Origin: Tepidiformaceae bacterium
GTDB lineage: Bacteria > Chloroflexota > Dehalococcoidia > Tepidiformales > Tepidiformaceae
Reading direction: 5' to 3'
Assembly (NCBI GenBank): GCA_958295975.1
Contig: OY282446.1
Location: 2,147,289 to 2,211,288 of the forward strand
Length of the DNA stretch: 64,000 nucleotides
The translations under genes and the position numbers were made by a program. Shown here in pieces: positions 30,791 through 44,105 of the stretch. The notes beneath the pieces were generated by a model. That model saw only the letters and a list, made by a program, of their open reading frames with translations, ran no database searches and was not told where the DNA came from. Every line of letters starts with the position of its first letter. The stretch's first letter is position 1.

Positions 30791-31735
30791 TTAAGGTGAT
30801 TGATCCTCACATGTGACTGACCAGCTCGCGGATTCGGAAGCCGATGTCGCCTCGATATAATAATACCCGGCGTCAGGGAAGGTGATGACTCGTGTCCACG
30901 TCTCGGATATAACGCGCTCAAATGGTGTCAGCGACGCCAGAAGCGCCGGGATTTCAATGTAAAAATACCTTTCGTTTCCACTGTAGGTATTGTCAGAAAC
31001 GGACGTCGTACAGACATAGACACCGGCTCGCTCGATCTGGAGAAGGGAAACAGTAGGGCCAACCCCATGCCCTATTCGACCATTAGCTTCCCTCCATTCA
31101 GGAATCCATCCGCCTTCAGGAATACATCGAGTTATCCATCCTGCGTTCTCTTCCACTTGCGTCACTTCAACGAGGTAGTCTCCTCCGGTGAAGTTGAAAA
31201 ATCGGCTCCATTTTCCGACTCCATTTTCCGAAGAGTCTTGAGCGAGAGTACGACCATCCCCAGTTTCCGAATTTATTATGCGGCTACGAACAGACCCGTT
31301 CCGAATACGAGTACCATCACGGGATAGATTCTCTCGAATGGAAAACTCACAGACGTGTGCTCCTTCGCCAATGTTAATTCGAGTAACGAGGGGGCCAGTC
31401 CCGGTGGCGATCACGGTCATAGCCTGGGATGGCATGGGGGTGGGCGTTGGAGTCGCCGTGGGAGCGTCGGGCACTGGCACGGCGAGCGTGATGTCGCCGT
31501 AGCGGAAGCGCCCGCTGCTGCTCACGCCGTCCGTCAGCGGCAGCGGGATCGTGCCCAGCGTGCGCCAGCTCCCGCCTTCGGGACGAGCGCTGATGTAGTT
31601 GCGCTCCGGGTCGTTCACGTCCTCCCAGACGCGGACCTCGACGTTGGCGGTGCGTTGCGACTGGGCGAGCACGCCCGCGCCGATGGAGACGGCGACGAGG
31701 GCGACGACGAGCCCGCCGATGATCCAGTTCTTCAC
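30791..31735 (-). CDS. Exported protein with Thr/Pro linker (chimeric composition)
   Basis: Not recognised. 314 residues. GTG 31735 follows CGGAGGCCCC. An uncleaved signal anchor (WIIGGLVVALVAVSIGAGVL) leads to a small domain of about 65 residues (VEVRVWEDVNDPERNYISA, then LGTIPLPLTDG), a PTATPTPTPMPS linker, and about 190 residues with four Cys in two similar beta-rich halves (EGAHVCEFSIR and RAGVYVCTTSV). The part after the linker (30791–31430) is clearly A/T-richer than the start, which suggests a foreign domain joined to a resident export module. No neighbour suggests a function. Confidence 0.75.
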   Translation of the reverse strand: MKNWIIGGLVVALVAVSIGAGVLAQSQRTANVEVRVWEDVNDPERNYISARPEGGSWRTLGTIPLPLTDGVSSSGRFRYGDITLAVPVPDAPTATPTPTPMPSQAMTVIATGTGPLVTRINIGEGAHVCEFSIRENLSRDGTRIRNGSVRSRIINSETGDGRTLAQDSSENGVGKWSRFFNFTGGDYLVEVTQVEENAGWITRCIPEGGWIPEWREANGRIGHGVGPTVSLLQIERAGVYVCTTSVSDNTYSGNERYFYIEIPALLASLTPFERVISETWTRVITFPDAGYYYIEATSASESASWSVTCEDQSP

Positions 31736-31778
31736 GCAGGGGCCTCCGGGAGTGTGGCCGCCCCGTGGCGGTTCGGGG

Positions 31779-31808
31779 AGCATACGGGGATGCCGCGAAC
31801 CGGTCCAA
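31779..31808 (-). promoter_or_regulatory. Candidate promoter of the exported protein
   Basis: TTGGAC (31808–31803), 18-base spacer, TATGCT (31784–31779), about 43 bases before the start codon on the minus strand. Confidence 0.4.
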
Positions 31809-31858
31809 CGCCGGTGGTTGGTTGGCGGCGAGTTGGTTAAAAATTAAGCGGGAGGGGC

Positions 31859-31871
31859 TTGACACTAAAAT
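31859..31871 (+). promoter_or_regulatory. A/T-rich promoter region of the 42-codon gene
   Basis: TTGACA (31859–31864) and TAAAAT (31866–31871), within an A/T-rich stretch that also holds GGTTAAAAATTAAG just upstream. The two hexamers are too close to be one promoter: either TAAAAT is the -10, with an unclear -35, or TTGACA is the -35 with a weak GAAATT at 17 bases. Confidence 0.35.
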
Positions 31872-31959
31872 CACGGTTCGGGAAATTTGGAGCACGGGCA
31901 TCGGCCCGGCCGCTGCCGGGGGTGCCAAACAGGCCTTCGGGCCGGAAAGGAGAGGCCAG

Positions 31960-32088
31960 ATGTCACGATATTGTTTAAGGGTTCAGCGTCTGTTGTTCGG
32001 GATTGGCAAGGCTGGCGCGCAGGTCGCGTTGCAGGAGTTCGTACGGACCACCGTACGGGCTGCCTTGTCAGGTTTCCTGAACTCCTAG
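31960..32088 (+). CDS. 42-residue small protein in its own transcription unit
   Basis: Not recognised. Start ATG 31960 follows AAAGGAGAGG; the product is 42 residues, basic and probably one amphipathic helix (LLFGIGKAGAQVALQEF). An A/T-rich promoter region lies about 90 bases upstream, a GGCC-TTCG-GGCC tetraloop hairpin precedes the ribosome binding site, and a strong terminator stem follows 21 bases after the stop. That complete set in an otherwise empty 450-base region argues for a real gene. A regulatory RNA instead of, or together with, the peptide is possible. Confidence 0.5.
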   Translation: MSRYCLRVQRLLFGIGKAGAQVALQEFVRTTVRAALSGFLNS

Positions 32089-39262: not shown

Positions 39263-40657
39263 ATGACCGCGCGCCACGCGGTGCGCCGCCGCCTCATGGG
39301 CACGCGCACCGTCAGCATCCGCGCCACCAGCCGCGCGCGCCCGTTCGGGTCGGGCGCCGCGCGCGTGCTCGCCGGATTCGCCCTCATCACGCTGGCGGCG
39401 GTGCCCGTGCTCATGCTGCCCGCCGCCTCCGAGGCCGGGCGCTCCACCGCCTGGCTGGACGCCTTCTTCACCGCCGTCTCCGCCGTCTGCGTGACGGGGC
39501 TGACGGTGGCGGACACGCAGACGCAGTGGAGCTTCCTCGGCGAGGCCGTGATCCTCGCGCTCGTGCAGGTGGGCGGGCTCGGCTACATGGCGGGCATGGG
39601 CATCGTGCTCTGGGCGCTGGGGCGCTCCCTCGGCCTGCGCGACCGCAACCTCATCCGCCTCTACTACGGCGCGCCCAGCATGCGGGAGGCCGCCTCCTTC
39701 ATGCGCGTCATCGTCATCTACACCCTCGTCTTCGAGGCGCTCGGCGCGCTCGCCCTCTTCGGCGGCTTCACGGCGGCGGGCGTGCCCCCCGAACGCGGCG
39801 CCTGGTGGGCCGTCTTCCACGCCGTCTCCGCCTTCAACGTGGCCGGCTTCAACGTCACCGGGGCGGACATGGTCGCCTTCCGCGACGCCCCCGCCGTGCT
39901 CGCGCCCATGATCGCGCTGGTGCTGGGGGGCTCGCTGGGGGCCGTGCCCGTGGTCATGGGCGCGCTGCGGCTCGGCCCGCGCCGCATGCCGCTCGACGCG
40001 AAGGTGGTGTTCACCGCCGCCGCCTGCGTGCTCGCCGCCGCCGCCTGCTTCATCGCCGCCAGCGAATGGACGAACACGGGCACGCTCGCCTCCGTGGGCG
40101 CGGGCGACCGCCCCCTGCTGGCGCTCTTCCAGGCGGCCATGTGGACCTCCGGCTTCAGCGCCGTCGATTCGGGGCTGCTGCACGACCACACCAAGCTGTT
40201 CGAGTCCGCCCTCATGCTGGTGGGCGGCGCCGCCGGTTCCCCCGCGGGCGGCATGAAGCTGGGCGTCGTGGCCGTCGTGGCCGTGGCCGCCGCCGCCGCC
40301 CTGCGCGGGCGCGACGACGTAGTCCTGTTCGGACGCCAGCTGCCGCGCCCCGTCGTGCGCCAGGCCATCACCATCGCCGCCGCCTTCGCCGCCTGCCACT
40401 TCCTCGTGACGATGCTGCTGCTGGCCGCCAGCGACGGCATCCCCTTCATCGATGTGCTCTACGAAGCGTCCTCGGCGCTCGGCACCGTGGGCTGGTCGGC
40501 GGGCGCGACGCCCCTGCTCGGCGACGCCGCCAAGGCGATCGTGATGGCGGCGATCCTCGTCGGGCGCTTCCTGCCGCTGGTGCTGGTGCTGCGCATGACG
40601 CGCCGCCGCAAGCCCCCGGTGGGCGCGCAGCTGGTCGACGGCGTGCGCTTCGGCTAG
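39263..40657 (+). CDS. TrkH/KtrB-family K+ transporter
   Basis: 464-residue membrane protein with four P-loop (M-P-M) repeats: TAVSAVCVTGLTV, HAVSAFNVAGFNV, AAMWTSGFSAVD and YEASSALGTVGWSAG, each with the selectivity-filter Gly. AAGSPAGGMKLG is the intramembrane gating loop. Length fits KtrB/TrkH. A regulatory KtrA/TrkA subunit is not adjacent. ATG 39263 is weakly supported by GAAGG; ATG 39296 is an alternative. Confidence 0.9.
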   Translation: MTARHAVRRRLMGTRTVSIRATSRARPFGSGAARVLAGFALITLAAVPVLMLPAASEAGRSTAWLDAFFTAVSAVCVTGLTVADTQTQWSFLGEAVILALVQVGGLGYMAGMGIVLWALGRSLGLRDRNLIRLYYGAPSMREAASFMRVIVIYTLVFEALGALALFGGFTAAGVPPERGAWWAVFHAVSAFNVAGFNVTGADMVAFRDAPAVLAPMIALVLGGSLGAVPVVMGALRLGPRRMPLDAKVVFTAAACVLAAAACFIAASEWTNTGTLASVGAGDRPLLALFQAAMWTSGFSAVDSGLLHDHTKLFESALMLVGGAAGSPAGGMKLGVVAVVAVAAAAALRGRDDVVLFGRQLPRPVVRQAITIAAAFAACHFLVTMLLLAASDGIPFIDVLYEASSALGTVGWSAGATPLLGDAAKAIVMAAILVGRFLPLVLVLRMTRRRKPPVGAQLVDGVRFG

Positions 40658-41823
40658 GCCCCAAAGCCGGGCGGCAGGCGCAGGTTGGCCGGGCCCAGGT
40701 CCCCCACCGAGGGGCAGCCGAGCAGCGTGAGCGTGCCCGCGATGCCCTGCCGGTAGACCTCGAGGATCTGGCGCACGCCCTCCTCGCCGCCCGCCGCCAG
40801 CGCCCAGATGTAGGGCCGCCCGACGAGCACCGCGCGCGCCCCCAGCGCCAGCGCCTTCACCACGTCGCTGCCGCGGCGCACGCCCCCGTCCAGCAGCACC
40901 TCGATCTCGCCGCCCACCGCGTCCGCGATGGCCGGCAGCGCGCGGATGGTGGCCACCGAGCCGTCCAGCGAGTTGCCCCCGTGGTTCGACACGGAGATGG
41001 CGTCCGCGCCCTCCGCCACGGCCCGCCGCGCGTCGTCCACGTCCGTGATGCCCTTCACCACCAGCGGCCCGTCCCACTGCCGCCGCACCCAGGCGATGTC
41101 GTCCCACGTGGGCGGATGCGCCATGATGCCCGCCGCCGCCTGCCCCGTCGTGAGCACGGCCTCGCCCTCCACCGGCGGCGCGTTGGGGAAGGTCAGCTCC
41201 AGCCCCGCGCGCAGGAAGTTGAGCGCCCACAGGGGCCGCAGCGCCATCTCCGGTGCGTAGCGCAGCGCCGTCGCCAGGTCCACGCGGTCGGGCACGCCCG
41301 GCTGCCCGCGCTGCACGTCCATGGGCCCCGACAGGGCCGCGAAGTCGACCGTCACGATGAGCGCGCGGCAGCCCGCCCGCCTGGCCCGCTCGATGGCGAT
41401 GGCGGAGCCCTCGCGCCCGCCGATCATGTAGAGCTGGAACCACACCTCGCTGGCGGCGGCGGTGATCTCCTCGATGGCGTAGCTGGCGAGGATGCCGATG
41501 CCGCAGGCCGTGCCCGCCGCCTCCGCCGCGCGCGCCACGCCCAGCTCGCCGTCGGGGTGGGCGATGCGGATGAAGCCCGCGGGCGTGGTGATGACGGGCA
41601 TGGAGAGTTCGCGTCCGAGCACGGTGGTGGCGAGCCCGCGCGGCTCGTGCGAATCGGGCACGCGCGCGCGCAGCCCGATCTCGCGAAAGCCCTCGCGGTT
41701 GGCGCGCACGGTCTGCCTGCGCTCGGTGCCGGCCTCGGTCCACCAGTAGACGGACCTGGGGAGCTTGCGTTTGGCCTCGCGCCGCGCCTGCGCGACGGAG
41801 GTGAGCTGGGGCGAACGGAACAT
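40654..41823 (-). CDS. FMN-dependent alpha-hydroxy-acid oxidase family, MftD-like
   Basis: 389-residue TIM-barrel flavoprotein. FMN and catalytic parts are visible: TTPAGF, FQLYMIGG, VVKGITDVDDA, the active His in VSNHGGNSLDG and DGGVRRGSDVVKALALGARA. In lactate and glycolate oxidases HGG is followed by the substrate-binding Arg; here it is Asn, as in MftD (pre-mycofactocin synthase), which the whole sequence resembles (PPTWDDIAWVRRQW). No mftABC genes are in the window. GGAGG precedes ATG 41823, and the start lies 4 bases after the DUF262 gene stop. The stop interlocks with that of trkH in CTAG. Confidence 0.85.
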   Translation of the reverse strand: MFRSPQLTSVAQARREAKRKLPRSVYWWTEAGTERRQTVRANREGFREIGLRARVPDSHEPRGLATTVLGRELSMPVITTPAGFIRIAHPDGELGVARAAEAAGTACGIGILASYAIEEITAAASEVWFQLYMIGGREGSAIAIERARRAGCRALIVTVDFAALSGPMDVQRGQPGVPDRVDLATALRYAPEMALRPLWALNFLRAGLELTFPNAPPVEGEAVLTTGQAAAGIMAHPPTWDDIAWVRRQWDGPLVVKGITDVDDARRAVAEGADAISVSNHGGNSLDGSVATIRALPAIADAVGGEIEVLLDGGVRRGSDVVKALALGARAVLVGRPYIWALAAGGEEGVRQILEVYRQGIAGTLTLLGCPSVGDLGPANLRLPPGFGA

Positions 41824-41827
41824 GGGG

Positions 41828-43540
41828 TTAGCCTCCAGGATTGATCAGCAGCCGGTCGATGGCGCTGCGGATCGCGTGCTCACGCGCTTCGGTGAAATCC
41901 ATGAAGTCCTTCGGAGTAAACGGGTTTTGGTTGAGGAGAATGTCGAAGGCTTCCCGTGGAATGAGGTGCGACTCAAAAATATCGCGAACCTTGTCCTCCC
42001 CATTCTTGGCAATCAGGTCCGGCAGATATTCGTGAGGGAGAGAACTGCCGATGACAGACCGGTTCGTGTCTGACGAGAGCGGCGTTCGATTCAGGACAGT
42101 ATCAATGGCATTGCCCAAACCATGCTTGCGGCCCCAGCTTTTTGGTATGATATGATGGTCGTCGACATCCTCGGGATTTGGATCTTGGCCTGTATACCAA
42201 TCCTTGGCGCCACGCAGGACGATTAGATTAATGACGCCATTATAGATTGCCGCATTCTGTCGAGTGAATTCGCGCAATCGAAGGTTCTCAGAACTAGGCA
42301 GGAAACTGCTGATCGCGTCGGGAATAGGTCCGCCTTCCATCCACGCACCGACCTCTCGGTAATCGCGAGCAGTTGTGGTTGCAACAGCCGAACCGTAGCG
42401 TTTCGTAAACACGCTTGCCCAGTACCAGCGCTTCACTTTGTTGAAAGCATCAAGGCGAGTGCTTGCAGGCTGTTTTCCTGCAGTCATATTAAGGGCTGCA
42501 AAAACTGGGAGGATCGCCACATAGGGAATGAATTTCGGGACAATAGCCCCGAATCCTCGGGAGAGCAAGCCGAGAGTCTGTTTGATGGCATCAACGGATT
42601 CCTTCCAGCGGAGCATAAATTCGTCAGCACTGGCGATGTAGATTGGGTCGTCCTTCTTCTTGCGATGCGGATTCTTGGGAACCAGATGTTTCAGGTATTC
42701 CGGCGAACAAGATCCGTTCTGGAGCAAGATAGAAATGACCTGAAGGACGTAAATATTCAGATGGCGAAAATCCACAGACTTGAAATCTTGCTTCTTTGTT
42801 GTCTGCCATTGTTGCTTAAGCAGGACACCCTCTGGTTTTAGTAGAGCGTTCATCAGATCAAATATATCAAGCTTAACCCCAGTGCTGTTGATCTTCGTGA
42901 AGATAGCGCAGACTTTATCGATCCCTATCTCGCCGCCGAGCTCAATGGAAGAGATTTTGTAGTTATCCATGACATCGTGAATAGTGCCCCGGAATTTCTC
43001 GCCGTATTCCGGATACTGTTTTCCATACTCATTGAGCCACTTGTCCATCGTTCCGCCTCCCTTTCCCAGAATAGACAGTGGGAAACAGTGGTTCTCGTAC
43101 TGATCCTTCGGAAGTTCAAAGGGAATTTTTGGCGACTGGTGTCCGAAAGCACCTTCGTAATCCTTATTCATGAGTCGATCAATATCGATGAAATGGAAAC
43201 TGCGTTGTTTTCGCTTGGGAGCCCGCTTGTTGGGAGCGAAGAGGGCATAGTAGATGGCGGAAAGCCGCTGCTGTCCATCCAGCACAATGTGCGTACGATC
43301 ATTCCGTCCGCCTTCGTAACCGCTGATGGGTTCGCACGAGAGAGAATCGAAGTGGTCTCCCCCTTTCCAGAGCAGCAGGCTACCAATATAATAGTCGCGA
43401 AAGATCGACCTCATCAAGTCGTCAATGGCCTTGGGATCCCACTCGAATTCGCGCTGGAAGTCCGGGATTTCGTAACGCCCAAGACGAAGGCCAGCGATCC
43501 AGTCCTTAAGGCACTTGCTGCTGGCGTTCAGGTCTTTCAC
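41828..43540 (-). CDS. DUF262–HNH protein, putative antiphage nuclease
   Basis: 570 residues. N-terminal DUF262 (ParB/Srx-like): YEIPDFQREFEWD and VLDGQQRLSAIYYALF, with the DGQQR NTPase motif at 88–92. C-terminal HNH (DUF1524-like): DDHHIIPKSWGRKH at about 460–475 and NRTPLSSDTNR. This domain pair is typical of GmrSD-like type IV restriction and related defence proteins that cut modified or phage DNA. Codon use is clearly A/T-richer than all neighbours. GTG 43540 lies 50 bases from the 3' end of tRNA-Met. No second subunit or methylase is adjacent. Confidence 0.88.
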   Translation of the reverse strand: MKDLNASSKCLKDWIAGLRLGRYEIPDFQREFEWDPKAIDDLMRSIFRDYYIGSLLLWKGGDHFDSLSCEPISGYEGGRNDRTHIVLDGQQRLSAIYYALFAPNKRAPKRKQRSFHFIDIDRLMNKDYEGAFGHQSPKIPFELPKDQYENHCFPLSILGKGGGTMDKWLNEYGKQYPEYGEKFRGTIHDVMDNYKISSIELGGEIGIDKVCAIFTKINSTGVKLDIFDLMNALLKPEGVLLKQQWQTTKKQDFKSVDFRHLNIYVLQVISILLQNGSCSPEYLKHLVPKNPHRKKKDDPIYIASADEFMLRWKESVDAIKQTLGLLSRGFGAIVPKFIPYVAILPVFAALNMTAGKQPASTRLDAFNKVKRWYWASVFTKRYGSAVATTTARDYREVGAWMEGGPIPDAISSFLPSSENLRLREFTRQNAAIYNGVINLIVLRGAKDWYTGQDPNPEDVDDHHIIPKSWGRKHGLGNAIDTVLNRTPLSSDTNRSVIGSSLPHEYLPDLIAKNGEDKVRDIFESHLIPREAFDILLNQNPFTPKDFMDFTEAREHAIRSAIDRLLINPGG

Positions 43541-43589
43541 GGGCGGCGGGGCTCCTCGGCGGGGAGTCTACAGCATCGGGGCGGGATGG

Positions 43590-43666
43590 TGGTAGCAGGG
43601 GAGAGGCTCGAACTCTCGACCTCACGATTATGAGTCGTGCGCTCTTACCGGCTGAGCTACCCTGCC
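43590..43666 (-). tRNA. tRNA-Met (CAT), elongator-type, CCA encoded
   Basis: Cloverleaf on the minus strand: acceptor GGCAGGG with CCCTGCT (G1·U72), D-stem GCTC/GAGC, anticodon stem CACGA/TCGTG with loop CTCATAA, T-stem GAGAG/CTCTC around TTCGAGC. Discriminator A and CCA are encoded. The anticodon stem lacks three consecutive G-C pairs, so it is not the initiator. A CAU tRNA could also be tRNA-Ile2 if its C34 is modified. Confidence 0.95.
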
Positions 43667-43692: not shown

Positions 43693-43730
43693 CGGTGATC
43701 GGTGCCGGTGGTTGGTGGTCGGTGGTCGGG
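43693..43730. repeat. 38-bp inverted repeat, left copy, heptad-based
   Basis: Built of degenerate (T/C)CGGTGG heptads. It matches the reverse complement of 44067–44105 at about 85%, with one base inserted. The two copies bracket the HigA-like gene, whose -10 starts 2 bases after this copy. Confidence 0.7.
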
Positions 43731-44066: not shown

Positions 44067-44105
44067 CCCGACTACCGGCCACCGGCCACCAGCCACCGAC
44101 CACCG
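44067..44105. repeat. 39-bp inverted repeat, right copy, heptad-based
   Basis: Partner of 43693–43730 in opposite orientation, lying between the HigA-like gene and the sbcC stop at 44107. Confidence 0.7.

Follow-up and report, generated by a model that had tools for sequence, protein, structure and literature searches.

The DUF262–HNH gene and its surroundings

In the window, meaning the whole 64-kb stretch of DNA analysed here, a putative single-chain DUF262–HNH nuclease gene lies between an intact tRNA-Met gene and the gene of an FMN-dependent dehydrogenase. The interval named in the original prediction, 41828–43666, comprises the DUF262–HNH gene together with the tRNA-Met gene. The features of the locus are as follows:

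40654..41823, reverse strand: FMN-dependent (2-hydroxy-acid) dehydrogenase, 79–82% identical to congeners (FMN_dh E 2.2e-111)
41824..41842, reverse strand: end of the DUF262–HNH gene (AAT CCT GGA GGC TAA), overlapping the GGAGG ribosome site of the dehydrogenase, 4 bases to the ATG
41828..43540, reverse strand: putative DUF262 (GmrS-like, ParB/Srx fold)–HNH (GmrD-like) modification-dependent nuclease, single chain, 570 aa, GTG start (GmrSD_N E 3.7e-30, AlphaFold2 model, structure matches)
42062..42160, reverse strand: HNH core, residues 461–493 (D461 H462 H463 ... N484 ... N493), from the alignment and the fold match to the C-terminal parts of BrxU/SspE and to Cas9 HNH
43265..43279, reverse strand: DGQQR nucleotide-hydrolysis motif, residues 88–92 (D, Q, Q and R invariant and G nearly so in a 55-sequence alignment)
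43541..43589, reverse strand: leader between tRNA-Met and the gene, holding GAGGAGCCCC and resembling the congeners' dehydrogenase leader (weak alignment signal)
43590..43666, reverse strand: tRNA-Met (CAT), intact, about 95–97.5% identical to congeners (tRNA call and congener comparison)

The gene starts 49 bases from the 3' end of the tRNA gene, where 50 had been predicted, and its stop codon (41828–41830) lies 4 bases from the dehydrogenase ATG (41821–41823), again as proposed. Its base composition and codon usage are foreign to the window, in agreement with the original prediction. GC content is 0.508 (50.8%), GC3 is 0.588 against a mean of 0.96 for 30 other ORFs of the window, and the window-based codon adaptation index is 0.21 against a mean of 0.78 (lowest 0.55), a contrast that is somewhat inflated since the reference ORFs were picked by GC3 > 0.85. 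The edges of the drop in GC coincide with both ends of the gene.

The immediate neighbours are tRNA-Met, the dehydrogenase, TrkH, an HTH protein and an SbcC-like ATPase. No ssp or dnd modification genes were found among them, and neither R-M genes nor any other partner genes stand beside the DUF262–HNH gene. An inverted repeat, CCGGTGGTTGGTGGTCGGTGG, at 43705–43725 and 44079–44099 (3 mismatches; none expected in shuffles) brackets a small HTH (HigA-like) gene that immediately precedes the tRNA-Met gene. In addition, a second AT-richer patch at 30800–31500 (GC 0.605 over positions 31001–32000) looks foreign or weakly constrained.

Domain plan, fold and known counterparts

In the 570-aa protein, Pfam recovered only GmrSD_N/DUF262 (PF03235), over residues 13–234 and with 106 bits against a cut-off of 33.2. 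No HMM match to DUF1524/PF07510 was obtained with the whole protein or with the C-terminal part alone, and since PF07510 is not reached, membership in the GmrSD family rests on fold, domain order and residues. NCBIfam held no family for the protein, and matches in PHROGs were confined to families of unknown function. Membership in PDC-M55C/HEC-05, the best PADLOC models, which stand for candidate defence and matched mainly over the DUF262 domain, was not accepted.

The AlphaFold2 model, built from 55 sequences, reached a pLDDT of 89.3 and a pTM of 0.81. Its best structural match was BrxU (Foldseek E 6.7e-13; VIA Z 17.5 and 16.2 over 472–488 residues), followed by SspE and DndI with Z of about 10 each. 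The match to BrxU holds domain by domain, because the two domains are placed differently and the whole-chain rmsd amounts to 19 Å. When the parts were compared alone, the C-terminal one matched Cas9-type HNH domains (Z 5–7) and the N-terminal one ParB/Noc (Z 5–5.6). Furthermore, BrxU was the sole match in a family-profile search of PDB sequences (E 4.7e-20).

The DGQQR and HNH motifs from which the original prediction had drawn a GmrSD-like class were recovered at residues 88–92 (DGQQR), 461–466 (DHHIIP), 484 and 493 (asparagines), alongside the GmrSD_N match and the fold. The window protein keeps DGQQR, S45, H463, N484 and N493, the last three being invariant in the 55-sequence alignment, while the aspartate of DHIYP is replaced by histidine (H462). 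S45 aligns with S42 of BrxU, and R92 of DGQQR corresponds to R87 of DndI. In BrxU, the S42A substitution led to loss of phage resistance (PMC8565348), and in DndI, R87A (DGQQR) and N541A (HNH) weakened or abolished it (PMC11662687). Altogether, assignment of the protein to the GmrSD-like fold class is supported.

Among known systems, BrxU (a GmrSD-family type IV restriction enzyme, PDB 7P9K/7P9M) likewise consists of a single chain with DUF262 followed by HNH, and shares DGQQR and the serine of RLFDS. It differs in sequence (about 16–17% identity), in carrying DHIYP where the window protein has HHIIP, and in residing within a BREX island, whereas the window gene stands alone. SspE and DndI, which are phosphorothioate-sensing DUF262–HNH nickases, share the two-domain plan, its order and DGQQR, but act with adjacent sspABCD/dndBCDE modification genes, none of which adjoins the window gene. 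RloF-type DUF262 genes (COG1479) are located inside type I R-M operons, and many close relatives are accompanied by hsdM/hsdS/hsdR; the window copy, in contrast, has no R-M linkage.

The protein is most probably a stand-alone DNA nuclease that, like BrxU, SspE and DndI, would be gated by NTP and depend on a modification or mark. The DUF262 domain would bind and hydrolyse nucleotide (DGQQR, S45) and sense a modification or another non-self mark on DNA, and sensing would free the HNH domain (H462/H463, N484, N493), which would then nick or cleave the DNA of phages or other invaders. Family and fold are what suggest a role in defence. The enzyme type is already known, and the case is mostly ordinary but cleanly documented.

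Relatives and their HEPN-like extension

Relatives were sought in 84,980 species genomes, and 80 of the 101 recovered were kept. These 80 are 38–47% identical to the window protein in their best segment and are distributed over many bacterial phyla and archaea; the genes of the closest ones are often AT-richer than their own flanks. Phage collections yielded only six weak relatives and plasmids 51, all below 60% identity. Type I R-M genes occur within about 6 kb at 18 of roughly 65–70 relative loci, which agrees with the neighbourhood published for GmrSD/RloF (PMC4619093).

Most relatives are longer than the window protein: where the 3' end is readable, 74 of 79 extend about 140–180 codons past its end. 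These DUF262–HNH–HEPN proteins (~745 aa), the nearest relatives at 39–49% identity, are colinear with window residues 1–565, have the same invariant residues and end in a HEPN-like domain whose RNxxxH is invariant, whereas the window copy ends at residue 570 without it. The motif corresponds to R711-N712-x3-H716 (Rx4H), invariant in 49 aligned long members. In the model of one relative, L068, the helical C-terminal domain matches AbiF (Z 8.4, 141 residues) and Csm6 HEPN (Z 7.6); as these Z values, modest for a helical domain, come with the invariant Rx4H motif, the extension of ~150 aa is likely a HEPN domain. PADLOC PDC-M34B, a model of a separate 192-residue protein, weakly matches the HEPN-like domain in L072 (residues 612–722) and L068 (residues 651–721), and the domain may thus also occur as a stand-alone candidate defence gene.

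Almost every relative has a HEPN-like domain at its C-terminus and the window protein has none, so that the latter could represent a remnant in decay; a DUF262–HNH–HEPN gene, or part of one, would have arrived, lost its HEPN part by 3' truncation at the insertion junction and would now be non-functional or partly functional. This main rival is unlikely in our judgement, although it would account for the greater length of the relatives, for a protein end that falls exactly at the HNH/HEPN boundary, and for last codons (NPGG and stop) that overlap the ribosome site of the dehydrogenase. Against a remnant, the frame is intact across 570 codons and all invariant columns of the 55-sequence alignment are kept; two relatives (L069 and L100) and the distant outgroups likewise have no HEPN-like domain, and the solved BrxU structure terminates with the HNH domain. 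A quick tree, in which the long branch of the window protein leaves the group close to its base at an open fork, fits loss of the HEPN domain as well as its primary absence. The favoured reading is that of a solitary enzyme working like BrxU, SspE and DndI. Should the short form prove active, comparing it with the long one could show what the HEPN domain contributes to defence, and the relatives point to a little-described group in which a DUF262–HNH enzyme also bears a HEPN domain.

A co-oriented tRNA gene lies at most 500 bases upstream at 3 of 72 relative loci, against 0.44 expected (Poisson P about 0.01), in a test that was chosen post hoc and involves small numbers, and this linkage is taken as a lead only. 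The three cases are L061 (tRNA-Gly, 138 bases), L068 (tRNA-Ser, 55 bases) and L064 (tRNA-Val, 335 bases). At L061 and L068, the DUF262–HNH gene appears solitary amid unrelated neighbours; for L068, an empty site was not found among relatives, which are too distant, and the tRNA does not adjoin the marker gene. For L064, in genome G134, the close relative G211 has the same marker gene and no third tRNA-Val within 1 kb. At positions 835–5641 of L064 (the L052 region), three tandem tRNA-Val(GAC) copies, the third degenerate, follow one another at about 1.8–2.9 kb, separated by different genes and with the DUF262–HNH gene after the last; small inserts seem to have accumulated step by step at one tRNA.

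A broader proposal, which we hold to be distinctly improbable, is that the relatives are widespread two-effector enzymes, with HNH and a HEPN RNase-like effector under one DUF262 sensor, that would also move integrase-free, as single genes, into the transcribed stretch directly behind tRNA genes; the window copy would be a case that shed its HEPN domain and for which the empty site is available.

Insertion beside tRNA-Met and overall interpretation

Alignment of the locus with relatives revealed the empty site. Both flanks are syntenic with eight congeners, and in all eight of these other sampled species of the high-GC Chloroflexota genus tRNA-Met is followed by a short leader and the dehydrogenase; a conserved, vertically inherited copy is not what appears. 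A family-wide search of 37 other genomes returned no homologue above about 37% identity. Because the site is empty in 8/8 congeners and the 37 family genomes hold no close homologue, the gene was most likely gained in the lineage of this species. The insert contains one gene and no integrase, which bears out the single-gene insertion that had been proposed.

At the dehydrogenase side, the GGAGG of the window is part of the final codons of the inserted gene (GGA GGC TAA CCCC ATG), while the congeners carry CAGGAGGAGCCCC or a near form ahead of the dehydrogenase start. The dehydrogenase start is altered as well: its first codons read MFRSPQLTS in the window, unlike those of all eight congeners, which have MVLGLGTVPLTS. 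The window leader aligns with that of seven congeners weakly above shuffles (shuffle fraction 0.002–0.34), and since such short alignments beat shuffles only weakly, we can only infer that the gene went in at the dehydrogenase's ribosome site or close to it. The suggestion of a precise insertion or replacement accordingly stays plausible in outline, with a leader that is only weakly like that of the congeners and a dehydrogenase start that was itself changed. In the interval between tRNA-Met and the gene, a search for promoter- or terminator-like sites found none, so that read-through transcription from tRNA-Met into the DUF262–HNH gene is likely.

The original prediction had further seen a classic island entry at the 3' end of the tRNA, and this part is not supported, because the 64-kb window holds no att-like repeat (no exact tRNA repeat of at least 12 bases elsewhere) and the insert no integrase. 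The other repeats that turned up across the insert are short and look like products of chance. Integration at tRNA genes is a known phenomenon, and the gene begins close behind one; an integrase-mediated genomic island at tRNA-Met that was later cut down to one gene is nevertheless very unlikely, as repeat and integrase are both absent, the insert runs right up to a coding start and none of the eight congeners retains traces of a larger island. An assembly chimera or contaminant joined at the tRNA would explain the abrupt change in composition at both ends but can be set aside as extremely improbable, given a genome in one 2.4-Mb contig with 1.1% contamination, flanks in congener order and an insert that replaces the intergenic leader only.

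In the explanation we consider probable, the gene was acquired horizontally, encodes a solitary single-chain enzyme of the GmrSD family working like BrxU, SspE and DndI, and would have inserted independently of an integrase. It would have entered one species between tRNA-Met and the dehydrogenase, probably by recombination; there it is probably transcribed together with the tRNA, and its translation is probably coupled to that of the dehydrogenase. The locus shows at base level, before and after, the entry of a solitary restriction-type gene into a chromosome beside a tRNA without integration machinery, and it combines a clean insertion history with a twist in domain architecture among the relatives.

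Elsewhere, the same 2.4-Mb genome contains matches to N6-methylase domains. It also carries four further DUF262 (GmrSD_N) genes, at 458917, 942846, 1876023 and 1993114 (L022, L024, L025 and L021, respectively), two of which lie within open frames of 1261 and 1466 codons.
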